Source of the DNA: Fistulifera solaris | Lineage: Eukaryota; Bacillariophyta; Bacillariophyceae; Naviculales; Stauroneidaceae | DNA: 64,000 nt | Assembly (NCBI GenBank): GCA_030295235.1 | Contig: AP026162.1 | Span: 1,550,001 to 1,614,000 of the forward strand | Direction of reading: 5' to 3' | Shown here: positions 2,755 to 44,222 of the stretch, piece by piece | Position numbering within the stretch: the first letter of the stretch is position 1 | How the letters are laid out: every line of letters begins with the position of its first letter | Notes under the pieces: model-generated | Databases searched by the model: none | What the model saw: the letters and a program-made list of their open reading frames with translations, nothing else | Told to the model about the DNA's origin: nothing | Made by a program: the position numbers and the translations under genes

Positions 2755-4890
2755 CTATTGCCTGCTGATCAATTCAATTGGAAATGTAGATGCTTGCTTC
2801 CCAAATATTTGTTCATAAGCAAGTCGTCTAAGTGTGTCATTAAAGGGGTCTTCTTTACGGGCTCGTCTCAAGTCATCCAAGCCCTTTTGTACTGTTTGTT
2901 TGGCGTCACGGTAAACTTTCTCGCAAGCGTCTCTGTCGTTGGGATCTAACTCACGGGTGTAAATCGGTTTCCCAAAAATAAAATAGTTCCGTTCTGGAAA
3001 AGCCGGTGTAAATATAGGAAACCCCATATTTTCTTCCCCCTTCTTAGTATCGTACCTAGCAGCCGTCACGTTCAATGATCCTTCTCTCAGTCTTTTCCCA
3101 ATGAACGGCAGGTTGAAAGATTCCTCCACTTCCAGTATGCCATTTACACTATCCACCATACCGATCGCACTAAAGGGTATAATGGTTGCATTGAAACGGG
3201 CGGCAGTTCGTACAAAATCCACCTTTTCGGGCCACTTCAAAGCATAATCTTTGCTGATCGAGAGCGCTTCTTTCGCACCACCAGGAAACAACATGGTCGG
3301 TTGACCGGATTGCAGAAGACGATAAAAGTTACGAGGAGTCACCGGTACTGCACCAAAAGCTTGAAAGTTACGTGCAAAGTTGCCCGATTCCTTGATTCCG
3401 GCGGTGCGGCCTTTGAGCTCGTTGAACGGCCCAAAACCCACAGCGACAGGATGGGCCAGCCCCGTGGAATCTTATTCTTTTCTTTGAGCATTTGAGCGAA
3501 TATTAAGTTCAAATCCAAAGCGACTTGACGCGGAACGAAATGCGATATTTCAGAAACAGCTTCGAGATTGATCCAGTCGCAACGCTGATCGGATTTACTT
3601 ACAAAATTGATGATTACCGACGAACAGAACGGGACCATCCATGTCAATTTTTGACAAGCCCCTCCAACGATATCCATCGGAATCAGTACTAAAGAAAACA
3701 GGACTGTGTGCTCTTTCGAGAGGTCGAACAGTGCTTGCTAGGACCTCCTCCAATTCTTCTTCAGTTGGCATAGTCCAATCGAGAATGGGATCGTATGGTT
3801 TCTTCCCTTGATGCTTAAAAGGATCAATATTCGAGTACAATATGGCTTCCGTCAAGTTAACACTGTCATCCAAAACAAAGTGACCTCGATTTCTAACAAG
3901 TAATTTCTCTGAATGAGGAATTAACTTCAGTAACCTGTCACATTCCGTAGCTGAAGGTACGAGTGCATCTTCTTTCCCAGCAATGACTAAAGTGGGAACA
4001 TTGATTTGTTCCAAGCGAACAGCTGCCGTCCCAGGTAATAACCAACGAGTGACACGATGCTCGAGCAGCGATGCTGGCAAACGCTCTTCCGTCACTGCAA
4101 TGAGATGCTGCGCGGTCTCAAGTATGTTTTGAAGTAAGGCCGGGTTCGGTTGACGCAGTGATGGTAGACTGACTATAGTATCCAGAATGCGTTGTTGCTG
4201 CTGTCGATCTGGAATCGTTAGCCCAAGAATGAAACTTCCCAGTAGCCCATAGGGTGTTATGCCATCCGTTAACTCATTTTTCGGCAAAGCAGCCAGCAGC
4301 GGCACCAAAGTGTCCCACCATGTTTGGTCAAATGAGGTCGCCGGGTTGACGAGAACAAGACCTTCGAGTAAGTCCACTTTCCGCAAACGAATGGCTACCG
4401 CCGACGCAATTAATCCCCCACAGCTCTCTCCAATCAACGTCACCTTGCGTTCAGGTGTTGAAGTCTCCTTAATGAATAAAGCAACAGCGTCCACAACCTC
4501 TAGAAAAGTCGAGGTGTCATTCGGACTGATTACGAGTCTCCATGTTTCGAACGTTCTGGCCAAGTCATCAAATTGAGAGACGGCGGATATCCCGTATCCG
4601 TCCAAGCCTGGTAAATAGACTGCAAGTGGCTCGTTGCTGTTATCCAGACTATTGAGGTGCGAGGAATCTTGCCCATCGGAGGATGGAGGAGCGATATAGT
4701 CGAAGCGAAGTGTCGGCGTAATTTCCGTAGAAAGAGCCGACGGTCTCTCTAAATCCCGATACACTTGTTGAAACGAGTCAACGAGATCTTGTAAAGTTTG
4801 TGGTTGAGGGGAAACCAGGGCATGTGCCACGTGCAGTGTTACGACGAACAGTGCGCTTATGAACGTCGACAGAGAATTTATTTTCTTCAT
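2755..4890 (-). CDS. Two-domain alpha/beta-hydrolase plus acyltransferase, phytyl ester synthase-like
   Basis: Exon 1 is 4890-3603 and exon 2 is 3523-2755, with a 79 bp intron (GTAAGT...AG). The ATG at 4890 opens a signal-peptide-like stretch (MKKINSLSTF, then hydrophobic to AHALVSP). An in-frame upstream TTG is not credible. The N-terminal half is an alpha/beta hydrolase with the nucleophile elbow GESCGG, a lid region, and late D and H (GKEDALVPS, NRGHFVLDD). The C-terminal half is an LPLAT/DAGAT-type acyltransferase (GPVLFVGNHQF, FPGGAKEAL). This architecture is that of plant PES1/2, which make fatty acid phytyl esters and triacylglycerol in plastids. Plastid location here is inferred. A one-base gap in the C run 3460-3463 splits PRG from LAHPVAVGFG. 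Expected length is about 685 aa. Confidence 0.82.
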
Positions 4891-5322: not shown

Positions 5323-5856
5323 ATGTGGAAGCCTGGATCCTCCAAGCCGAGAACCGCAGCAGACGGCAACGACCCTCTACAAGCCACAAATTCGACCCCC
5401 GCTTTGAAAGAACAAGAAGACACCACCAGTTCGAGTCAACAAAAAACACGACAGCTATCTGGTTTGACCATGAATATGAAATTCATGAAACGGAAAATAG
5501 ACGAGCAAGAGAATCATCGACGACATAGTCATGACGGTGTAATACACCGACAATCCGATCCAGAGGAAACGACATCACCTCTTTCGACGGAGCCATATCA
5601 GATGGCAACATCGACAGACATGTATTGCTACAACAATCTACTCGGAAGACGATCGTTCGGTAACTTTAATAAATTCATGGAATCAGCGTGGACAGCTTGC
5701 TACGAGCAGTCGAAACAAAGTAACAGTCGGCACGCAGCTACCGATGAAGAGCTATTGCAGCGTTACAAAGACTTTAGTAGGAGGAAAGCTGTCGGTAACG
5801 ACATTGATGATAGACCCGTAAAGCGGAGCAAACGGAGAGCCAAGCAGTCGCTTTAA
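5323..5856 (+). CDS. MPP6: M-phase phosphoprotein 6 homologue (nuclear exosome cofactor)
   Basis: 177 aa from the ATG at 5323; the upstream TTG is rejected. Three MPP6 landmarks occur in order: LTMNMKFMKRK near residue 50 (the basic exosome-binding helix), LLGRRSFGNFNKFME near 110 (the LLYGRMSFRGFN block), and TDEELLQRYKDF near 145. The C-terminus is basic and NLS-like (RPVKRSKRRAK). MPP6 bridges RRP6 and MTR4 to the nuclear exosome for 5.8S rRNA maturation and RNA surveillance. The gene is a single uninterrupted exon. The linkers are longer than in animals, and overall identity is limited to these motifs. Confidence 0.75.
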   Translation: MWKPGSSKPRTAADGNDPLQATNSTPALKEQEDTTSSSQQKTRQLSGLTMNMKFMKRKIDEQENHRRHSHDGVIHRQSDPEETTSPLSTEPYQMATSTDMYCYNNLLGRRSFGNFNKFMESAWTACYEQSKQSNSRHAATDEELLQRYKDFSRRKAVGNDIDDRPVKRSKRRAKQSL

Positions 5857-5962
5857 GCGTGTGAAAGTTATGCTTATAACGTTGTCTTATTATGCAAATA
5901 AAGTCTATATTCGTTCGTTGTCAAAATTGCAAAAGAAAATAGTTCGTCGTAGACCATCAGGA

Positions 5963-6742
5963 CTACAGGTTGTCAGTCCCGGCAATTAGACCAATCTGAC
6001 GCAACTTCTCTAATGTCATATCCATGTCACCATCGTGATGGACGAATATACCGCCGGCGGCTTCCCATTTCTCACGGAGACATAGGCGATCGTCAATGAG
6101 TACAGCATTCGGACCGCTCTCGTAATGTTTGTTATCGGACCAACATGTGATGACATTACATTTGTCTGTAGACACTTTTCTCCCATTCATGTTCAAATGT
6201 GTGCGAAAATGGCCCGCCATATCAATGTGATTCACTTGCACTCCCAACTCGCGCTCACACCAGCGCAATTTCTCCACGCGTGATGAAGGGTGATTGGGGA
6301 CGCCGGTCAAAATATCGGGCTGCAAATGCCGAATGGCTTGCCAGAGACGCTTTCCATCGCGTGTCCAGGGTAGCCGTTCAAAAAACGCATCGGCTTCTTT
6401 GACTTTTTGCCACATCGTTGAGCGTTTGACCGGAATATGAAAACTGGAAAACTCCTTCGGTAAATCGGGGAATATACTCCGTATGCCTGCTTCAAAATCC
6501 ACTAGAACGCCATCCAAGTCACAGTATACGCGAATCTCGGGTTGCTCCGCAACTCTTTGTGATAGGTAGCTCGGATTGTTGCTGTAACTGAAAGACATGT
6601 CGGTCGTGTTCTGCCATTGCGGTATGCTTGTCGAAAAGGAGACCTTCAATGCCGCCGGTGCAACCATTCTCGAAGGACGAACCACAAACGAAGTTGCGGA
6701 TGCAATAAGAATGAATAGAGGAAAGAAGCCACGGGCAGTCAT
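5963..6742 (-). CDS. HAD-superfamily phosphatase (5'-nucleotidase type), predicted plastid
   Basis: 259 aa, one exon, ATG at 6742. The N-terminus is a short signal peptide ending ASATSFVVRP, which fits the diatom ASAF-type cleavage site with Phe for import into the complex plastid. The HAD core starts with VYCDLDGVLVDFEAG (nucleophile and acid Asp pair), followed by DILTGVPN (motif II Thr), a Lys/Arg-rich helix and VLIDDRLCLREKWEAAGG (motif IV Asp pair). The arrangement matches the cytosolic C-type 5'(3')-deoxyribonucleotidase group. The substrate is unknown. It is tail-to-tail with the MPP6-like gene (106 bp gap). Confidence 0.78.
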   Translation of the reverse strand: MTARGFFPLFILIASATSFVVRPSRMVAPAALKVSFSTSIPQWQNTTDMSFSYSNNPSYLSQRVAEQPEIRVYCDLDGVLVDFEAGIRSIFPDLPKEFSSFHIPVKRSTMWQKVKEADAFFERLPWTRDGKRLWQAIRHLQPDILTGVPNHPSSRVEKLRWCERELGVQVNHIDMAGHFRTHLNMNGRKVSTDKCNVITCWSDNKHYESGPNAVLIDDRLCLREKWEAAGGIFVHHDGDMDMTLEKLRQIGLIAGTDNL

Positions 6743-7330
6743 GGCCGGAAGAAAAAAAAGTAAAGTTCACAGAGAGGGTAAAAAAAAACAATGCTTTGTG
6801 CGAACTCCGAACTTTGTCAATGTCTGCAAACACCAACTCGATTCTCTTCTCCTTTCGCCTCTTCCTTGTTAGTCAGTAGCTATTCGATCGTTTGATTAAT
6901 GCAGTTCAAAGTGAATTCACATCGCTAACAGTCATTTCAGTCGTGATTTCCGTGATGGTTGCGTTGCGATATCGAAGAGGCGAGAAGAACGACATCATCA
7001 AAAAAATGCGCCGTCTTTTTTTTCTTCGGGATTGAGACGTCACCGTCACCAGGGTCAAGGCTTGTTTAGAGCACGCAGCAAAGCTGTAGCGCTGAACAGT
7101 AGTCTCGCGGACTCGACAAGTACAAATTGAGAGTTACTGTAAGTACCGCTACGCGCTATTTATGGTCGGAGTTTATACCGCCCCTCTTTCTCCTCCGCCT
7201 CGCGTCCGGATGTTGTTGACTTTTTGACCCTCTATCTTTTTGACCCTCGTCACCCTTGGCAAGCAAAACAATCCGTACTTCACTCATCCTCAAGGCGAGG
7301 CTCGGTCTACTGTTTGACGTTTTCGCAGAA
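6743..7330. other. Divergent intergenic region
   Basis: A 5' region shared by the HAD and mu-homology genes. A pyrimidine-rich tract (CCCCTCTTTCTCCTCCGCC near 7181) and an ACGTCA element at 7037-7042 (a CRE-type core known in diatom CO2/cAMP-responsive promoters) are visible. Their function here is not shown. No gene is seen. Confidence 0.35.
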
Positions 7331-8332
7331 ATGAATCAACGCATACGATACGATGGTTCTAGCGCCGATGAAGAACAACCGAGCAAACCTCGTCCTGTTT
7401 TAATTTCCGTATCGCAGGGTTCCTCTGCCTTGGCGGAATCGGAAGTGAGCCATGCGCATCCTCCGATACATGCTTCCGATTCCTTCGATCCCTTCGGAAT
7501 TGGTGAATTGCAGCAACAGAAGGCAGTGCCTTTCATTAAACCGCCCCCGAATGTGAGCCGCTTGAGTCGACCCAACAAAATTCTGCCGCCCAAAATGCTA
7601 ATCAAACTGACAATACACGAGCAAGTTTCGTCGGTGGCAAAGCCAGGAAAAGAACGAGAGGGAACTTCGGAAGTCACCATCGATGGTACTATTTATGCTC
7701 AAGTGCAATGCAGTGACGCGAATCGAAATGCTCCGTTCTCACTCAAAACGGGAGAATTAAGTTCCGGAACTTTAACTTTGTATCCCAATCAAGATTTTTC
7801 GGCTTCTCCGACAAAATGTGATGCGATTGAAGTTCCGAAGAAAGACGTTGGATATGTACCAGTTGCTTTCTATACCATCACAGATGAAATCGAGCACATG
7901 CCGGTTCTTCTCGAACGAAAGGTGACTGTACAAGAAAAGTCCGTTCGAATTGCCATCCAAGTTCGATCCAAACTGTCCAACTTAGGGAAAATGGAAGACT
8001 TTTCGATCGCATTGGCTATTCCAGAACGGGTAGATGGCAGCTCTGTGGAAGTGGTCCGCGGGGAGGGGCATTACGATGAGCTCAAGCGGACTGTCATTTG
8101 GAAGCTAGCATCGCTCAACAAGGGGGAAAGTTTTATGGTCAGTGCTAACGCAAATCTATGGACAGTATTGGGCCCGGAAGAAGATGTACAATTCCCGGTG
8201 ATTCTTCGGTGTAGTTCTTCAGCGGATCACATCAGCTCGCTCGACGTGCAGGTTACCGAATGCGCTGAACATCCAGCCTCTTTGACTATTCAGAAAGTTC
8301 ATTCCTTTCTATTACTGCATCGCTTGACGTAG
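7331..8332 (+). CDS. Mu-homology-domain (muniscin/FCHO-like) endocytic adaptor
   Basis: 333 aa from the ATG at 7331; the in-frame TTG at 7256 is rejected. The N-terminal about 85 residues are low-complexity and carry a DPF motif (residues 53-55), the kind of short motif that binds the AP-2 alpha appendage. From about residue 90 a beta-rich domain follows (PKMLIKLTIHEQV, GTIYAQVQCSD, SGTLTLYPNQDF, VPVAFYTITDE, IAIQVRSKLSNLG, VIWKLASLNKGES). This resembles the mu homology domain of FCHO/SGIP proteins and of the plant TPLATE-complex subunit TML. No F-BAR domain is present. A role in clathrin-mediated endocytosis is inferred from the fold. Confidence 0.6.
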   Translation: MNQRIRYDGSSADEEQPSKPRPVLISVSQGSSALAESEVSHAHPPIHASDSFDPFGIGELQQQKAVPFIKPPPNVSRLSRPNKILPPKMLIKLTIHEQVSSVAKPGKEREGTSEVTIDGTIYAQVQCSDANRNAPFSLKTGELSSGTLTLYPNQDFSASPTKCDAIEVPKKDVGYVPVAFYTITDEIEHMPVLLERKVTVQEKSVRIAIQVRSKLSNLGKMEDFSIALAIPERVDGSSVEVVRGEGHYDELKRTVIWKLASLNKGESFMVSANANLWTVLGPEEDVQFPVILRCSSSADHISSLDVQVTECAEHPASLTIQKVHSFLLLHRLT

Positions 8333-14500: not shown

Positions 14501-15766
14501 TGTCTATTCAATGCTATTAGTCTACCCACGACACAGCAGTCGTTAATGTTTCTCTAGGCTTATTCAAAGTACAACTGACTGATTTGGAAGAAGCTCTTTT
14601 TGTTGTATTGAATCATCATCAAAAGAATGCAGATCGCTCCGTCGCGCAGTGCTCCTCTGTTCTCGCATCGTGTGTGTGTGTCAACCTGACCAGAGATATC
14701 AACCCTCACGGGGACGTCTGCAATCTGACAACATAGATCCATCATCTAGCCTCTTTACTACTAAATTGATTATACTACATTACTACGGAATCCGAACGCC
14801 CATCTCCCAGCAGAAAGCAGATTCTCAACCCAGTAGAAGCGTTGTGTAAACGGCGGAAATTAAAGCAGAACACCACATTTGCCACGTGTGATGGTGTTCT
14901 CGCATCGTACAATAAGGCGTGTGGGTGTGGGTGTGGTGTTTATAGAGAGGTGGTCCAGACAATCTGGACCAGTTGTATTTTCTTTGTATTTTCACGTTCC
15001 CAGGAAATCTGGGTGAGCGGTGTTTTCCACTTGGTCCAGAAATCTGGACCAGTTGTATTTTCACGTACCCAGGAAATCTGGGGTTTGGTGTTTACACGTG
15101 GTCCAGAAAATCTGGACCAGCTGTATTATTACATTTCCAGGAAATCTGGGTGTTTGGTGTTCACACGTGGTCCAGAAAACCTGGGGCTTGGGATGTACAT
15201 GTGTCCAGAAATTTGGATTTGTATTTCCACGTTCCCAAAAATGTCGGCGTGTGTTATTTTTTAACTGTCCACATAATCTGGACCCTTTGTATTTACACGT
15301 CTCCAGAAATCATCTGAACCTGTTGTGGTCATCTTCAAAATGTCATCAACCAAATTTAATAAAGGTTGTGGTTTACTACTACTTACTCTATATATCAGAG
15401 TGTGGACTACTTTTTTCAGTGACTCAACTTTGTTTGAGTCCCGTGACTTGTTTTCATCCACTAATAGCAACTCTATCATAGATTTTAGGCTTTGAAAAAT
15501 TTATACCTTTTAATCACGGTGCCATTGAAACACCATTCAATAATCACGGGTCGATTATATACATTATCTCCATTGTATTCTTCTAGTAGAGTGCTCTATT
15601 GATTATTCTGGCATAAAATGTCGCTGGTGATAGCGCACACCGTCTCACAACGGTTACATCCACTCAGTCATGTTAAGGCCTTTAAACGTCAAGCCTTGCT
15701 ATGTCAATATTGCAAATGCAATAACTAGGGGAACGTGATTTAAAACAGCGAGCATCAATCTATGAC
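14501..15766. other. Intergenic region around array A
   Basis: Apart from the hairpin array the stretch holds GT-rich simple sequence (near 14672 and 14922) and AT-rich DNA from 15330 to 15766. No gene or structural RNA is recognised. Confidence 0.4.
14951..15325 (+). repeat. Palindromic hairpin array A (diverged)
   Basis: Five to seven imperfect units, spaced about 67-81 bp. Each has a hairpin close to TGGTCCAGAAATCTGGACCA followed by TTGTATTTTCACGT, then a weaker palindrome CCAGGAAATCTGGG. Clear unit starts are at 14951, 15031, 15098 and 15168, with degenerate ones near 15202, 15270 and 15300. Units decay towards the right. It shares its core with array B at 38590-39240. The array lies upstream of the codanin start and downstream of the SDR stop. 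The open frames across it arise from the periodicity and are not genes. Confidence 0.8.
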
Positions 15767-28177: not shown

Positions 28178-30685
28178 GTCGTCGCCAATCAATTGCCATT
28201 TGTTTGGCACCCTTTTCCCCGAAAGTCTTGGTTGAGAATTTTTTGGACTTTTTCTTTCGAGCGGGTAGCCCCTTTATGGATTTTCTCACAAGCCAAAGCC
28301 ACCCAGTAAGAATCTACGTTGAGGTCTTTTGTAGCGGAAAACGCCCACAACTGAGCCGTCTTTGCGTTCTTTACGGTAGATGCGTTTTGTTGTTGGCTCG
28401 GTGGATGATATCTCGTGGAAGGAGATTTCCAGGCCGGTTGTTCTCGCGGTCTTGATCGGCATGATCGCATGTCAGATCGCTACCCAGAACCTTGCCTGTA
28501 TGTCGCCTCCAGGACAAAACGGCAAAAGTTTCGTGTTCGCCATTTTCTGCTGGTCCATGAAGGTGATGCGGAACGAGATTACCCCGTTAATAAGGCTAAT
28601 CCGGCTTTTGGATCGGAATGTACTTGCCTCGGCCGAATATCGATGACGTGACTTCCATCTTCGCTGACAAGAATATATGATCGAAGAGAGGGTGTTTCCA
28701 CCAATTGAATTTCCCACTGCTGAAATACCACGGAATGATTTCGAGCGTGGACAATTCGTAATATTTTCTGCAAGAAAAACACAAGTTGTAATCGATGAGT
28801 AATGATCGATGAGCTGAGAGCATTTGTTTTTTGCACAGCATTGCAAACGCGGAACGTACTCTTTGTCTTTGTTGATGTTGACCAGTCAGCTGTTATCGGC
28901 AATCGATATCCAATCTAAAACAACGACGCGATTGTCTTGAATGCTGCCACCACTGTGATGACCCAAATATCCCTCCGGTCGCCCGGCCTTTGAACGTGAT
29001 CAGCACTAAGTGATGAATGTAAAATGTCTTTTTGGTGTTGTTGCAGAGACTGCTATACAGATCGACTCTCAAATATCCATCGCCATCGGCTCGAGAGCTC
29101 AGCACCATGTAGGATCTGGAAAGAACATGACCATTGGCACCGGGCTTAGCGATGAAAGCCTCTCCTATGACTTCGTCAAACTCTGGGTCAAAGTTGAATT
29201 CACTTGAATTGGTCGCCAACCCTGGTCACGGCTGATGATGAAACCATTCTCGTGGCAGAGATAAACCGTCGGGCAGCGTAGGCGGATTCCGCTTCCATCA
29301 CACACAAGCCACGCTCGCGACTTGACCTTTTTCATCTCGGATTTCAATTCGATCTCCTAGTTTCATCGGTCCTTCTTCTGGTTTAGGAAAATAGTCGGTC
29401 CATTCACCGATATGGAAATCTGCAGACCCGTCATCCATGAGATTTTCATCAACCTCGTCCTGTGGCGGGTCGTTACCATTGGCGTCTGTTGCTCTTTCGG
29501 CATCTCTGTTACGTCCATTGAGTTCAAAAACATTGGATGGGATCGCTCTCAACTGATCCGTCACCAACCAGTAATTGATAATCCCCACTGGGACAGGCTT
29601 GTGCGCTTCTGGCACAAAGTCACTTGCTTCCTGCGCCGTTGCAAGCGGAATTTTGAAATCGACGTTCGCCGAAGAAGGCCTGGCTCCATCCTCTGGCTTC
29701 TGGGTTGTTCATGAAAGAGAACAAAGAATTGTTAGAGTGTTCACCGACAAGTCATCGCGAAGCAACAATTTCGACTTACGCCTTGAACCGCCAAATTAAA
29801 GCCCTAAGGTCCGGCTAGATCACGTGGACCGATTGGGAGCCGTTGATTTCCCAGATCCTCGATCTTATGGCGCAGCTTCTCCACAGCGTTTTGAAGTGAT
29901 GCAGTTCGTGCAACTCTTTGATTGGCCGCGGGCGGCTGCTGCGCGGTGTCGCCCGCAGAGGCAGCGGAGTCATCTTCAACAATAAGAACTTCGGCTTTGG
30001 AGGCAATTGCGTTGGGATCGCCACTGACAGTATGAGCCGGCTTCGAGCGGGTGCGTTGGGATCGTACTTGACCGTTAGAACTTCGGCTTTGGAGACGGTT
30101 GCGATAGAATCGCCATTGACAGTACGGACTTCGGATTTAGAGGCAGGTGCGTCGATACACTCGACTTTAGGGGAACTGTCGTCGGCTGTGACGACTTCAT
30201 CGTAGACTGTGTATTCGCTGGCACTTTCGATGTCAAGAAGCGACTTCCCCATTTGGCGTTTTCACCTTGTCGCTCTGCAAGGTCTGAAGACCTCGCCAGC
30301 GTTTTCATAGAGTCTCTGGCCTGAGTCATGCTCCGAGTCTGGCGTCGCCCAAGAGATGGCTGCTTTGAGTGGGGATCAGTTTCCTTGGCCCGAGAAGCAT
30401 TGTTGGAAGCGGAAGCAGCAGCGGTGGATTTTGATTTTGACTTGCCGGTTGCTGCTTTAGCAACAGAAGAATCGTTGGAAGCAAATGCAGAAGTTGCATG
30501 TTTCGATTCGGATTCGTTGATCTTCTCAGCAGTTTGAAAAGCGGGAGGCGTTATCGACGGCGTCATCATCCTTGAGGACAGAGAGAGCCGCTGAACCGGT
30601 TAGCGGAAGCGAGACTGACAGGCTTTTTCGATCCAGGAGAGTCGGACGAGGCCCGAAGCTTTGAGTTGTTGGTACCAGAGATCAT
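28178..30685 (-). pseudogene. NUMOD4/HNH- and AP2-like gene, frame-broken
   Basis: A minus-strand gene or gene remnant from ATG 30685 towards the tandem repeat. The N-terminal about 270 residues are low-complexity, with degenerate repeats of KAEVLTV and GDPNA type. After an intron (donor GTAAGT near 29779, acceptor near 29702) comes an acidic linker, then WRPIQVN (NUMOD4-like), GYLRVDLYSS, IHHLVLITFKG and GHHSGG with DNRV and LDW (HNH-like nuclease core). Another intron near 28850-28758 is likely. At the end, YWVALACEKIHKG and FSTKTFGEKGAKQMAIDWRR resemble the AP2 DNA-binding domain of homing-endonuclease-like proteins. At least six frame breaks, some at homopolymer runs, are needed to read it through. 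It may be one gene hit by assembly errors or a decayed nuclease. The 3' end is uncertain. Confidence 0.5.
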
Positions 30686-35987: not shown

Positions 35988-36847
35988 AATGACAATACCA
36001 CACTTGCTGCACCGCACTTATAGTCGTCTTTGGAGTGAGAAAGCAAGAGAATAATCAAAAGGGTTCCTTCTTCACTCTTGCACGATGTTCAAGAAGAAAT
36101 TCTTTCAATCGACAATAAATAATGATGGCACGCGATGCTTTTTTATTTTTTATTTTTATTTTTTTCTTGGTTGAGCGGTGCGGTGGAATTTTATAGGATA
36201 CGCGCGCGTGAAATGCGCGCAGTGTGCCCTCCAGAAAATTTTAGGTGCGGTATAGTCTCTAGGTCTACAGGAATTGTGTCTCTGTTCCAGAAATTCTGGA
36301 AACTGTATCTTTCTAGAGAGTAGACAGAAATTCTGTGGGGAAGGGCGAGATCGAAAAAGCTAATAGACGCCGAAGGCTGCTAGTCTAGCAAAATAATAAT
36401 TACAAACTCTTATTTATCTTGTAGGTACTAAGTCTCGCGATCTTAACCGCTAGTAACTGATTTGGACTGGCAATCCCAAAGGCAACCGAATATAAGAAAC
36501 AAATCGACTAGTCTGAGGACGCGTAATATGAATGTCTTCACTGTGATTTGATCGACATAGAAATGATTCTTATCGCTCATTCATGAATCTTGATCACTAG
36601 AGTCGTCTTTTCGACCTATAGATGTCGGAGATATTTGAGTCTGTAAGCTTAATAGTTTCGGCGAAAAGAGGGCCGGAAGAATGTTTTTCCTCGTCCTGGG
36701 CTAGGGAGCTCTCAATGTCTATCCATGTGTTGATTATTCGGCATAGCGCAACTTCTTTAGTAAACAACTCTATTCTCTAGCCCGAATCGACATCTAGCAG
36801 AGGCATCCGTTATCTAACCTCTCCGTATCACCTAAGCGCAATTCTTC
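35988..36847. other. Intergenic region with solo palindromes
   Basis: No gene is seen. At about 36227-36335 it holds members of the palindrome family found in the two arrays: CCAGAAAATTTT, GTTCCAGAAATTCTGGAAAC and ACAGAAATTCTGTG. The remainder is AT-rich and featureless. Confidence 0.55.
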
Positions 36848-38142
36848 CTATAGACCTGGTTGCAGCTTATCCGTTGTGGGGTATTTCATACCGCGACTTT
36901 CCGCAACAACTGTTTTTCGTTTCGCAAGAACAACTGGATTCTTTGAACCGCCTCCTACTGAAAATCGTCGCTCGATGTTAACCACACGTGATCTTTCTTC
37001 GCTCATCTCGTAATCCCATTTCTCGGCTTCCTGGTATTTTCTCTCGTATTCATCGTCCAACGATTCGAGCAGTTGGTAATGTTCATTAAGTATCGTGAAG
37101 ACGCGGACACGGGCGAGATGATGTCCGAGTTCAGCCGCTGTCACAAGCCATTCCAAGGCATCAGCCCGATCTCTAGTGACACCCACACCATCGAGTAGGC
37201 ACTCTCCGAGCATGTACGCTGCTCCTGCATGTCCTAAATGGGCCGCACGTCGAAAAAGGTTTACCGCAAGCTCCGTGTTTTCTGCGATTCCATCTCCCGT
37301 GTATAATGCGACAGCTAATTCATAAGTAGCCGTGATGTGCCGATGTGCGTCAACACATCGTCTCCACCACACAACTGCCTGTTTAGGATCGGATTCCAGT
37401 CCAGCGACGCCTCCTTCGCTTAAGATGAGTCCTGTCAAGAGAAGAAACTGTAAGTCGACCCGTCGAAAGAATATTTCAAAAATGAATCAAACTGATCAAA
37501 CCTACCATACAAACACATCCCATCGGGGTGTCCCTTGTTGGCTAGTTCCTTGACCAAATTAAGACCCTTCTTTTGAAACACGGGGTTACTTTCGTGATAG
37601 ATGTAAAAGCAGGCGATTCGAAACTTAAGATCTTGACACTTCTTCGTATCTCCTCCTTCCAATCGCTCACAAAATCTCAAGTCAAATTCCAGGGAAGCGA
37701 TCTGATGTGCTTTTGGAATACGGCGCGGCCAGTCTCGTTTCATCTTTCGGGGAGTTTTGCCTTCGTGTGCTTCCGGCCATCGTCTTTGATAATCTGCGAG
37801 CAAATCTCGGTGATATGCTAATACTTGATAGAAACGCTTACTCTCGGAATACCCCGAAGGGCATTCATTGCCCACAAGAGCTTCCTCACGGCAGTGCGTA
37901 ACGAGATCGTCTTTCAGTTTCAGTGATGAGAAAAAAGCACTCAGATCATTTCCTTTGAAGCTCAAACGCGGGTCATCTTCGTCCCCGCGGTTTGATAGGC
38001 AGTAATAAGCGACGTTTGCTGTAGCCAAGGCGGCAATTGAGATGGAAAGATCATTATTTGCCGAAACCCTCTGTTGTCTATGGGTGGACGAAAAACCGAT
38101 TCTCCACGTGTTGCGGTTCATAAAGACCCTGGATGAATTCAT
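36848..38142 (-). CDS. SEL1-repeat protein
   Basis: Exons 38142-37506 and 37431-36848, 74 bp intron, 406 aa, start ATG 38142. A possible N-terminal membrane or targeting segment is ISIAALATANVAYYCLS. The C-terminal half holds SEL1-type helical repeats: KKGLNLVKELANKGHPDGMCLYG, then DPKQAVVWWRRCVDA, ELAVALYTGDGIAEN, AVNLFRRAAHLGHAGAAYMLG and ALEWLVTAAELGHHLAR. SEL1 repeats are TPR-like adaptors, for example in ER-associated degradation or signalling. The specific partner is unknown. Its 5' side faces hairpin array B. Confidence 0.82.
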
Positions 38143-38589
38143 TGTGCGACGTTGTTCGAAGAGGATGAAGAATATTACTGAACACAAATGGCGTCTCTAC
38201 GAATGATAAGAATTTGTTGTGAAGTCGAGTTCTGCTTTTGACTTTTGACATCCGCAAGCCTTTTTTTTGTTGTTACGCGATGCGGACGCTTTTTGCCGTG
38301 TCGGGATTTGTTCCTGTCGCACCACCATCCGTTCAAATCCATGTGAATCAACACTAATAACAGTCCGCAGTTATGATGCCACGCGAACGCGCTTTGAGTC
38401 ATAAAACAATAGTCTTCCGCGCAAGACTGCTGTCCAATCTTCATCTGTCTTGACAAGCTAGGCTGCATTCAAAAGATTTGACTTCGTAACGTCGATAAAA
38501 TGGGATCATTGTCTGACGACTGTGTTCGAGTCACGAGTCAATATCCTCCTTGTTGAAACGATACTGTTTAAGTGTCATCCGACAATAAA
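38143..38589. other. Intergenic region left of array B
   Basis: About 450 bp from the SEL1-repeat start to the array. No gene, RNA or other repeat is recognised. Confidence 0.35.
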
Positions 38590-39240
38590 ATTTCTGGCGG
38601 TCCAGAAATTCTGAAAATCTGGGGAGTTGCAGAAATTCTGGACCAGTTCTATTGCATTGGTCCGGAAATTCTGGACCAGTTGTATATCATTCATACAGAA
38701 AATCTGGGCTGGTCCAGAAATTCTGGACCACTTGTATTTCATTCACACAGAAAATGTGGGGCGGTCCAGAAATTCTGGACCAGTTTTATTACATTCATAC
38801 AGAAAATCTGGGGACTTCCAGAAATTCTGTACCAGAAAATCTTGATCTGGTCCAGAAATTCTGGACCAGTTGTATTTCATTCATACAGAAAATCCTGGGG
38901 TAGGTCCAGAAATTCTGGACCAGGTGTATTTCAATCATACAGAAAATCTGGGCTAGGTCCAGAAATTCTGGACCAGTTGTATTTCATTCATACGGAAAAT
39001 CTGGGGCAGGTCCAGAAATTCTGGACCAGTTGTATATCATTCATACAGAAAATCTGGGCTGGTCCAGAAATTCTGGACCACTTGTATTTCATTCGCACAG
39101 AGAATGTGGGGCGGTCCAGAAAATCTGGACCAGTTGTATTTCATTTATACAGAAAATCTGGGCTGGTCCAAAAATTCTGGACCAATTGAGGTCCAGAATT
39201 TCTGGACCAGGAGTTCTGGGTTCTGGACCAGTTATTTGTG
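38590..39240 (+). repeat. Palindromic hairpin array B
   Basis: About 13-14 hairpins, most matching GGTCCAGAAATTCTGGACC, a palindrome broken only at its centre. Unit starts at 38711, 38763, 38849, 38903, 38956, 39009, 39061, 39113 and 39165 give a 52-54 bp period (one gap longer). Between hairpins a constant spacer reads TTGTATTTCATTCATACAG and then AAAATCTGGG. A second-order repeat is visible: the block from about 38671 recurs 350 bp later at 39021 with few changes. The array ends about 130 bp before the TCF25 ATG, so it may be promoter or 5' UTR. The 205-residue frame across it is a product of periodicity. Confidence 0.92.
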
Positions 39241-39366
39241 ATGTGTTGTTGTATTTAATTTTGTTTTCTTTTGCGGGCCACGGATGATACTTTGAATTCA
39301 TTCATGTTCCATCATTGTTCACAATAAAAACGAAAGAAGTGATCTCATTGCAAACATATAGAAAGA

Positions 39367-41412
39367 ATGAGTGCTAGAGCGATCCGGGCCTTAAGAGGAG
39401 GTAGTCATGAAGCGCACTTAGCGGAGAACGCGGATGCCGACGACGACTCCTCATCCGAAGAATACGATGAAAAACCGCGTTCGAGGCCATCGGCCTTCTC
39501 CGCCATGCTGGACACCGACGATGAAGAAGACGACAGCGACACCGGTGAAGAAGACACTGGATCCGAAGATGGAAATACTGATGTGCCAAAAGGGGGAAGC
39601 GAACGCAACAACGACGCTTTAATGAACCGTAAAACAAAACAGTCTGCGACCTCGCAATCGGCACACAATACAAAAGAACGACGACAAGGAAGGACAAAAG
39701 GATGATACCGAATCGGAAGAAGAGGACTTGGACACGCTACTCAACGAATTTACCCAGCATGATATTCAGCAGAATGAAGAAACGAAGCAGCACAAATCCA
39801 GTTTCTTTTCCCAGATTTGCGGAGTACAAAAGAGATTTATCCTAGATCTCGATGTTGATGCAGCCATGCGAAATGCATTATTGAACGGTGATTTAAGTCA
39901 TACACGAGGAACGAGCAATCAGAAAAGTCGACAGGTGCTTCTTTTTGGTCCACCTCGTGATAATTGGCCTCGTCCTCTTCATTTTGTTGGCGGTGGTATC
40001 GGAATGGTCACGTACGAACAAAGTCCGCGACCAATCCCCTGGCCTTACTCGGACATTGCGACACTAGTAAGGAATGACAACAAAAAAGATCTTATCGAAT
40101 TTGTTCAGGATATGAATCACTGGTTTACATTTCAGCATGCTCAGGACTGCTCTCGAGATTTGGAAGATTATGCCGTTGTAAAGCAGACGGGCGATTTGAA
40201 CGCTTTAGTCATGTTCGCGGCGCATCATCCCTATGTGACGGATGCACTGTTGCAGTTGACGGGCGTCTTATATCAAACAAACCATAGTCAAGAAGGGTTG
40301 GCGTTACTGCGACGATGCTTGTGGGTGTACGAGAGCTCCGCAATGTTGCCGTTTAACAACCGCGTGCTGGATGGAGCGGCCCTCATGGACATGGATCAAC
40401 CAGAAAATGCGACTTTCTTTCGATCACTTTTCAAACTGATCCAAGTCAGCACTGTGGCTGCTCTGCCACGTACTGCTGCGGCCGTCTGCCGCTATATTCT
40501 GGCTCTAGACCCGCTGCGTGATCCTATGCATGTTCTTGCTGTGTTGGATGCGTTCACGATAAATTGCAAGTCCGATACCTTTGATCAATGGCTCATTGAT
40601 TTGGTCGACAACAATTGTATTTCTATTTATTTTCGTGATGAGGAAAATCCAAAGCGTGTGTTTCAATGCACACTTGGGGAAATGCCCAACTGGTTGTTGT
40701 CGTATTCGCTTGCGCAGTATAGATTACACGGAAAGGAGGGCAGCTTTGATGGTCTCCGCAAGCTTTGACCCAATTTCCGGAAATCGTTTCGTTATTACTC
40801 CAGGAACTGGAGGTAGATATTACTGGAAGATCTTTTTTACGGGATTGGCCAACCGCTTTGGAAAAAGCTACGGAGCGGAGTTTCAGTACTAGGCGTTCTT
40901 GGGGAAGACAGCAAGGTGAACTGGATCCACATGAAGTTCAAAGAACAGTTCAAACCGCGGACAAAATACTAGCGCTGTACGTTCGACTAACGGCCAAAGT
41001 TTGGGGCGGCGACGACATTTTGCAGTTTCTATACGATACTTTGGTCACCCTTCCAGAATCGGAATCCCCGGCGCTTCCTCCAGCGGCTATCATGCGATAC
41101 TCTGCCTTGAATCCTGGTGACTTCCATAATCGTGTGGAACTACTTCCACAAGATATGAATATCATGGATGGTGGTATGATTGCGCACGCCATGACTGTGG
41201 TCACGAATCGCCCACGTTTTCTGAGGCACATGCCACGAGGAGCGATGCATGGTCAGCAACGGATGGACATCGAAAACTTACCAGCTGGTTTTCCTGCTCT
41301 TTTTGGTCCGCCCACGAATGTCGTGGATCCAGACTGGCCTTTGGTGGAAGTCTTGTGGAGGAGTTTTCTTCCATGGAATCACGTCGAAGGAGTCCGGCCT
41401 CCAGCAAGGTAG
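39367..41412 (+). CDS. TCF25: TCF25/RQC1 ribosome quality control factor
   Basis: 681 aa, ATG 39367. The N-terminus is MSARAIRALRGG followed by a long acidic, low-complexity stretch, as in TCF25 and yeast Rqc1. The conserved core includes KHRWFVF-like elements replaced here by SSFFSQICGVQKRFILDLDVDAAMR, then RPIPWPYSD, HPYVTDALLQLTGVLYQT, ALLRRCLWVYESS, FFRSLFKLIQVS, ALPRTAAAVCRYILALDP and a C-terminal PEIVSLLLQELEVD. Rqc1 works with Ltn1 and Cdc48 on stalled 60S nascent chains. Two single-base run differences (A run 39672-39675, A pair 40760-40761) split the frame into three. Confidence 0.85.
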
Positions 41413-42954: not shown

Positions 42955-44222
42955 ATTAACAAGAAGTAGATTAAAAGTGTTTAAGAGACAAAGATAATAG
43001 GGACTATTGCTACCTCGTACGCTTGCAGATGAAAATGGACCGCTTTGCTTTTATTTTCGTGGTGCGTGTCTTTCGCTTCAAACTTTGATGAGTCTGTCTG
43101 GCCGCTTGACGTAAGGTTTTACCAGGTACAAGGTCTAGGTGAAAAATATCCGGGTTTAGCTCAGGCTTGTCGCTCACGCCTGTATGGCAGAAAAGTTTTA
43201 CCGTCGTGATGATGATCCGATGCGGAAGGCAATCACTTTTGGCAATCAATTGAATGACAATGGACGAAAGCGAGAGACGCAAAACGGAAGCCTTGGTTGT
43301 TCGGTTCATGACTGCTGTACAATCCAGTCTTGGATGGCGTAAACCAACACTCCCTTCCATAGTAAAAAATCCAAGGTGTCGATTCTCGGAATTTTCAACG
43401 TAAAAACAAATGAAACTTTCAGCAATTAGTTCAGAATCGTCATTGTTGCGACTTTATTTACCCGTAATTATAATTCTATTTGCAATTGAATGACAATGGA
43501 CGAATGCGAGAGACGCAAAACGGAAGCCTTGGTTGTTCGGTTCATGACTGATGTACAATCCAGTCTTGGCTGGCGTAAACCAACACTCCCTTCCATAGTA
43601 AAAATCCAAGGTGTCGATTCTCGGAATTTTCAACGTAAAAACAAATTAAACTTTCAGCAATTAGTTCAGAATCGTCATTGTTGCGACTTTATTTACAAGT
43701 AATTATATTTATATTTTGCAGTTGAATGACAATGGACGAAAGCGAGAGACGCAAAACGGAAGCCTTTGTTTTTCGGTTCATGACTGCTGTACAATCCAGT
43801 CTTGGCTGGCGTAAAACAACACCCCGCGTCATAGTGTAGTGAAATTTCTAAGAGTCACGAAAAAATAGATAGAATGTACTATGACCTCTTTTATTTTTTA
43901 CAAAAATTAATAAAATTTCTGGAATCTAGTCTAGACAGAATTTCTGTCTGAATCAACACACCGAAATTCCAGAATTTCTGGAAGAAATCAAAAATCTTCC
44001 TTTGCACGCAACTACAGACTATACGTAGTACGGAGTAACAACTATAAGTTCTTAAGCTGAAACCTTATCCGATGTAAGACGCGCTCGGTTTGAAAGAAAA
44101 TTATTGCGAAATGAAGATGAAAAGCGATCAAAATGAAGTAACCAAGACGATGTCTATGGTAGACTTACGCCATTTTCCAAAGACGAAGGACCCAGAGTAA
44201 GGCAACAATATATCACCAAGCT
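42955..44222. other. Intergenic region with repeats and solo palindromes
   Basis: Besides the 236 bp tandem repeat, 43909-43990 holds three palindrome-family members: AAATTTCTGGAAT, GACAGAATTTCTGTC and TTCCAGAATTTCTGGAA. No complete gene is seen. Confidence 0.55.
43247..43838 (+). repeat. 236 bp tandem repeat, 2.5 copies
   Basis: Copies start at 43247, 43483 and 43719 with the phrase A(T/G)TTGAATGACAATGGACG; period 236 bp. The third copy is cut near 43838. Each contains a short frame reading ERRKTEALVVRFM and QSSLGWRKPTLPS, with small changes between copies. The copies may derive from a duplicated exon, but no full gene is visible. Confidence 0.88.

Follow-up and report, generated by a model that had tools for sequence, protein, structure and literature searches.

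The palindrome array beside the TCF25 gene of Fistulifera solaris is one copy of a family dispersed through the genome, and probably a satellite in rapid change, not a switch of TCF25, since the sister copy of the gene lacks the array. The reading we favour, with a probability of roughly 0.45, is that of a dispersed satellite family with fast turnover whose constant part, as far as sequence can tell, is a dyad, the putative site of a homodimeric DNA-binding protein. Hereafter, the window denotes the whole stretch of 64,000 nucleotides that was analysed, and its features are collected in Table 1.

Table 1. Palindrome arrays, single palindromes, internal duplication and neighbouring genes in the window.
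Feature	Position	Strand	Remark
B-type palindrome array, 14 copies (GGTCCAGAAATTCTGGACC and variants), A-type CAGAAAATCTG between them	38599..39232	+	~52-bp period; degenerate tail after 39208
Exact B-type palindrome (example)	38711..38729	.	19 bp, one central base flanked by nine pairs
A-type palindrome CAGAAAATCTG (example)	38696..38706	+	start 19 bp ahead of next B core
Internal duplication, 176 bp, copy 1	38659..38834	+	alignment
Internal duplication, 176 bp, copy 2	39009..39184	+	alignment; offset 350 bp
TCF25 gene region	39367..41412	+	ORFs 39367-39705, 39728-40768, 40765-41412; neighbour, outside repeat
Divergent neighbour	36848..38187	-	ORFs 36848-37438 (Sel1 repeats), 37435-38187 (without Pfam match); outside repeat
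Second array of the same superfamily, GGTCCAGAAAATCTGGACC and CCCAGGAAATCTGGG in alternation	14952..15284	+	~69-bp period; without counterpart at the C2 duplicate
Solo doublet TTCCAGAAATTCTGGAA and GACAGAAATTCTGTG	36284..36337	+	spacer without recognisable relation
Solo doublet GACAGAATTTCTGTC and TTCCAGAATTTCTGGAA	43934..43983	-	

Between 38599 and 39208, fourteen 19-bp palindromes with at least six of nine pairs were recovered, in agreement with the 13-14 copies of the preliminary description. Seven of these are exact and eight carry all nine pairs; hence, the nine-pair stem previously ascribed to each copy holds for 8 of 14, while the others keep at least six. Allowing up to three mismatches to the 19-mer, the window contains 31 strand-wise matches (the second array and one solo site counted), versus a mean of 0.02 in 100 shuffles. 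Tandem Repeats Finder (TRF) resolved the array into a 52-bp unit with 86-87% matches. The period of 52-54 bp proposed earlier is found for 9 of the 13 steps between 19-mers, the other four being 27, 33, 34 and 25 bp. The half-palindrome described inside the spacer corresponds to the A-type site, which is exact at five places and present as variants in other units; where it is intact, the next core follows 19-20 bp downstream. The second-order duplication is real, with an offset of 350 bp, but each copy is 176 bp long, not 350. Similarly, the view that hairpin and spacer are both conserved needs correction, as departures from consensus affect 8 of 227 positions in the 19-mer and 4 of 119 in the A site versus 27 of 225 in the spacer.

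The array indeed lies between divergent genes, with two minus-strand ORFs (36848-38187) on one side and TCF25 on the plus strand on the other. Its last 19-mer ends 159 bp ahead of the ATG at 39367, which was adopted from the earlier reading as the TCF25 start (the distance had been given as ~130 bp); the Tcf25 domain match (1.9e-32) falls on the second ORF, 39728-40768. Beyond what had been described, the second array at 14952-15284, the two solo doublets and thousands of genome-wide copies were recovered. Separately, a further dispersed tandem repeat, whose unit measures 236 bp, occupies 43247-43836 of the window and 5784-7028 of locus L025 (79-84% identity over the longer matches), following a palindrome array in L025 and preceding a solo palindrome doublet in the window. 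A 48-bp tandem repeat detected by TRF at 29988-30142 (3.3 degenerate copies) has a period divisible by three and may be coding.

The search for the 19-mer was extended to the 51.7 Mb assembly (61 contigs), where up to two mismatches gave 1,698 forward matches, with none for the reversed control. The shorter patterns CCAGA-NNN-TCTGG and ACAGA-NNN-TCTGT occur 4,309 and 1,329 times, with 30 and 31 occurrences of the reversed patterns, demonstrating a family that is dispersed genome-wide and not specific to the TCF25 locus. The cores cluster as short arrays of a ~52-bp monomer. Among the 100 matches listed for CCAGA-NNN-TCTGG, which cover the first ~560 kb of contig C1, there are 15 clusters, three of them single sites and the last one truncated where the listed matches end; by extrapolation, scaled by sites or by length, this corresponds to ~650 to 1,400 clusters genome-wide. 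We fetched 20 loci of 10 kb, eight of 6 kb and four of 3.5-4.8 kb, picked for listed palindromes, yielding 33 sequences with the window. Of these, 32 hold 33 called arrays (none in L032, two in L026), with the second window array being sub-threshold. B-type sites are over-represented in this sample, because most loci were found via the exact 19-mer.

The typical monomer of ~52 bp comprises an A palindrome (ACAGA-NNN-TCTGT-like), 19-20 bp further on a B palindrome (GGTCCAGA-NNN-TCTGGACC) or a C palindrome (TTCCAGA-NNN-TCTGGAA), and a ~33-bp spacer. Adjacent cores are separated by 19 bp in 19, by 20 bp in 12 and by 52 bp in 13 of the 33 arrays, while a distance of 32 bp occurs in 7 arrays, of 33 bp in 9 and of 34 bp in 8; the spacing of 19-20 bp recurs in many arrays despite differing spacers. 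The spacers themselves diverge strongly between loci, and an alignment on the B/C core shows nothing in common beyond a faint GTTTT-like motif and an A site that is blurred. The best inter-locus array matches of at least 100 bp reach 92.4% (L018/L019) and 91.0% (L030/window), the rest being lower. The sampled arrays are 40.6% G+C, and higher-order repeats of ~206-223 bp are present at several loci. Outside the called arrays, L012 contains a solo monomer at 8190-8245 with both palindromes and the spacer CGGTGTTTGCGATC. Another short dispersed repeat of 53-80 bp, likewise outside arrays, is common to L012 (8280-9630), L042 (2288-2340) and L017 (5472-5547).

A passage of PMC5935921 describes F. 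solaris as an allopolyploid diatom with 42 chromosome pairs. In the assembly, we observed long colinear duplicate regions of 85-92% identity that join contig C1 with C2 and C3 with C4 (for example window 38569-39316 versus L045), as in an allodiploid or strongly diverged phased diploid. Contig C2 carries a copy of the TCF25 region of C1 at 91% identity and, in the same order as on C1, one of the region next to the second window array at 85%. Both window arrays (2 of 2) are missing from these duplicates. At TCF25, the alignment with the window extends to 38569 and resumes at 39316, with 220 bp between; in the 1,451 bp of this duplicate, gap included, there is no CAG-N5-CTG and no 19-mer within five mismatches. 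The duplicate of the second array has ~80 bp where the window has ~710, its 651 bp contain no core, and the alignment is patchy. The empty sites, in L045 and L046, appear as blastn pieces without a sharp boundary. In two further pairs, arrays are found on both sides at the same place with different content: L013 (C2) and L039 (C1), with flanks of 92 and 88% identity, differ by 1,014 versus 2,708 bp between flanks and 10 versus 35 cores, and L015 (C3) and L020 (C4), with flanks of 82-90%, by 787 versus 375 bp and 11 versus 4 cores. The best matching array pieces within these pairs show 77-79% identity over 86-207 bp. As both pairs originate from the array-selected sample, they give no turnover rate; judged by the alignments, arrays are frequently gained, lost or replaced between duplicated loci. 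The absence of both window arrays from their duplicates makes it unlikely that any single array is needed by its neighbour gene, and what is observed at duplicated loci makes a host function, be it local or chromosome-wide, less likely. In the same assembly, contig C60 encodes a plastid-type Rubisco large chain with chain 7yk5_A as best match, followed by 5n9z, 5mz2 and 5oya, all of which we take to be diatom Rubisco enzymes. Two red-type rbcL genes are present on this contig, at 95949-96878 (+) and 211361-212215 (-), alike by eye until the C-terminal part; the second ends early, and the plastid contig was perhaps assembled doubly.

The position of the arrays relative to genes was assessed using gene calls from a home-made hexamer score, so that the position figures are coarse. 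In a first scan (window and L009-L028), a single cluster of 39 extends into a predicted coding segment, over 12 bp. Most arrays in that scan seemed to stand ahead of a same-strand gene; the promoter bias that this suggested was dropped following a second scan, where the neighbouring gene end is 5' in 37 of 57 cases versus 57% for random noncoding positions (length-weighted null). Array strand orientation, compared by eye, displays no clear bias. Control of the adjacent gene, here TCF25, by a regulatory array would be in line with the presence of dyad sites and with the many arrays that have a predicted coding segment at most a few hundred bp from their end. It is however most improbable considering that the duplicate TCF25 locus, despite a gene region of 91% identity, is devoid of the palindrome, that the share of 5' neighbours is as given above, and that four arrays lie between convergent genes. 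The same duplicate and the same null also argue against an element specific to TCF25.

Next, the flanks of all 33 loci were compared pairwise with the arrays masked, and no flanking element common to the arrays was found, such as copies of a transposable element or MITE would share. The comparison returned 36 inter-locus matches in 15 pairs, of which the long ones represent two duplicated regions and the 236-bp tandem, while the rest are at most 119 bp. The mobile hairpin satellite considered in the preliminary description survives in part: the family is a satellite in kind, being dispersed genome-wide with arrays that come and go between duplicates, but it lacks the common flank over these 33 loci. 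Congruent with a satellite or minisatellite, it has a head-to-tail noncoding unit (52 bp, TRF), higher-order repeats (206-223 bp) and rapid turnover, with arrays absent or replaced at duplicates.

The most constant property of the family is the dyad. Genome-wide, 4,309 sites have a centre of 3 bp, versus 112 with 0-2 bp (control 22) and 122 with 4-6 bp (control 45). In the 33 sampled arrays, CCAGA-Nk-TCTGG is encountered 308 times with k=3, three times with k=2, not at all with k=0-1 or k=4-8, and 17 times with k=9-13. Between CAG and CTG, each position is A or T in 94-98% of 297 sites. The pair outside CAG/CTG is C-G at 4,309 sites, A-T at 1,329 and mixed at 704 (315+389; controls 52+17). Two pairs further out, G-C (GTC..GAC) is found at 1,274 sites and T-A (TTC..GAA) at 1,466, both with controls of 0, and G/A-mixed combinations at 246 (118+128; controls 0). 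Perfectly palindromic 3-bp flanks are present in 148 of 341 distinct sites, compared to a mean of 52 and a maximum of 67 in 500 shuffles. Symmetry hence exists in more than one base-pair version, and it is retained across the genome-wide copies, one of the points on which the preliminary description had let its proposal stand or fall. On the other hand, it may go back to no more than two or three ancestral types that were already symmetric, namely GGTC-GACC, TTC-GAA and ACAG-CTGT (the last with asymmetric outer flanks).

Of the arm changes inside five arrays, 46 are one-sided and a single one is two-sided and unpaired, thus no compensation is seen now, and mixed-symmetry sites are no rarer than expected from mutation alone. 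Correction of the arms by template switching, a candidate we considered, shows no sign of acting at present in these 47 changes; it may have acted in the past. To quantify variation, five simple arrays were each aligned to their own consensus without using the palindrome as anchor, giving departures of 56/1358 (4.1%) for the B-type 19-mer, 54/768 (7.0%) for the A site and 191/1514 (12.6%) for the spacer. The boxes are accordingly steadier than the rest of the monomer over the five arrays, except in L016, where the A site (29/235) is more variable than the spacer (42/464). The spectrum of core distances, computed as a check for helical phasing, has a peak at 17.5 bp and a weaker one at 10.4 bp.

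The main rival explanation is a selfish minisatellite without a dedicated protein, in which the palindromes would promote slippage, or breakage and re-replication; intact ones would predominate through multiplication of the units that carry them. We grant it a substantial chance, if one short of even. Congruent with this, the presence, size and content of arrays differ between duplicated loci, local duplications and higher-order repeats occur, and there is no gene-side preference. Hairpin-driven growth should however tolerate other centre lengths, which are near background, and the outer arms of the solo doublets are still symmetric (as the doublets were detected through their core pattern, independent evidence comes from the outer bases only).

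The fixed centre also bears on a transcribed form, with arrays serving as multi-hairpin leaders or small-RNA precursors, since a hairpin, whether of RNA or of single-stranded DNA, would be expected to tolerate loops of differing length. The window array folds as RNA with -282.6 kcal/mol (z -14.3 versus shuffles), yet a strong fold is expected of any tandem palindrome. Among oriented sites with C-G as first pair, G-U-type cells exceed A-C-type cells at pairs 2-4 (35 versus 16); the excess stems wholly from pair 4 (23 versus 3, with 19 of the 23 being G-T), with pairs 2-3 at 12 versus 13, and much of it is probably due to flanks of the form GTTC-GAAT, present at 14 sites in 9 arrays. Moreover, at 8-9 bp the stems would be short substrates for Dicer, and 5' enrichment near genes is lacking. 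Of the features of an RNA family, the dyad has several paired versions, combined with no loop-length tolerance and a G-U excess confined to pair 4, a mixed picture. The multi-hairpin 5' UTR or small-RNA source raised previously is improbable.

We instead prefer the putative homodimer site, because the distance between half-sites is fixed, the A/T centre is kept in composition rather than in sequence, and the arms are steadier than the spacers. The protein-binding array suggested at the outset fits the fixed 3-bp centre and the A/T bias, with the binder itself being putative. If the palindrome is a recognition site for such a protein, the fixed centre would set the half-site distance and the A/T centre would be read by shape. 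Binding could serve chromatin marking or help the repeat itself to amplify, in line with proposals made for the conserved boxes of other satellites, and the arrays would grow locally through unequal exchange or slippage. Against this reading, we count that intact palindromes may predominate simply because such units amplify, that a few symmetric ancestral sites (two or three) can account by descent for the several symmetric versions, and that the absence at two duplicate loci speaks against a fixed local host function.

Among known systems, many dispersed intergenic palindromes are also a hallmark of REP/BIME elements, which are bacterial. In 257 Gb of prokaryote genomes, the 19-mer has 2 exact matches, which is near the chance expectation, and neither it nor a longer unit has an exact match in IMG/VR (scans that may omit records near this genome); a viral or bacterial origin was hence rejected. 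Heat-shock elements consist of GAA/TTC blocks 2 bp apart, and TTCCAGAAATTCTGGAA holds two TTCnnGAA blocks. However, GAA and TTC are 1 bp apart at the dyad, B sites carry GTC/GAC, and the commonest core, CAGAAATTCTG, reads GAA-A-TTC, so that an array of heat-shock elements was also dismissed. Closer parallels are satellites with conserved boxes. An excerpt of PMC3694981 reports satellite DNAs of Meloidogyne that keep a CENP-B box-like motif in divergent monomers, in simple and higher-order arrays, with the suggestion that this motif binds protein, promotes rearrangement, or both; a comparable case is the CENP-B box in alpha satellite. By these descriptions, the diatom family likewise has a short motif that stays steady while the rest of the monomer diverges, both in simple arrays and in those of higher order; it differs in that its box is a long dyad, occurring twice per ~52-bp monomer in many short dispersed arrays. 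In Drosophila, short euchromatic arrays of the 1.688 satellite recruit the protein POF, according to a part of PMC5788526. These resemble the diatom arrays in being short and among genes, and differ in sequence and organism; POF recruitment is a feature of the fly. A section of a review (PMC12692304) counts palindromes among the structural features that some satellites have and mentions short, dispersed arrays in the role of seeds, and a mollusc satellite has junctions mapping within a palindrome, as noted in a portion of PMC5139131. By analogy, the diatom family fits a known kind, satellites with conserved boxes and short euchromatic arrays. No diatom satellite of such a sort was found in the literature outside subscription journals, and the core string occurs in two papers, which are unrelated by title. 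By term search, PMC8147415, PMC8329260 and PMC5935921 do not mention palindromes, nor satellites where these were looked for.

A farther-reaching version, which we regard as unlikely, is that more than 5,600 fixed-spacing dyads, placed in hundreds or more short intergenic arrays on a doublet lattice of 19-20, ~33 and ~52 bp, are bound by a dedicated putative homodimer that organises chromatin or chromosomes. If so, single arrays would be replaceable and the system would act by number, not by place. The near-invariant dyads, in their thousands, could readily serve as bait for a major DNA-binding protein, and the duplicated genome, with arrays on one, both or neither side, offers a direct test of whether satellite boxes serve the host or the repeat.
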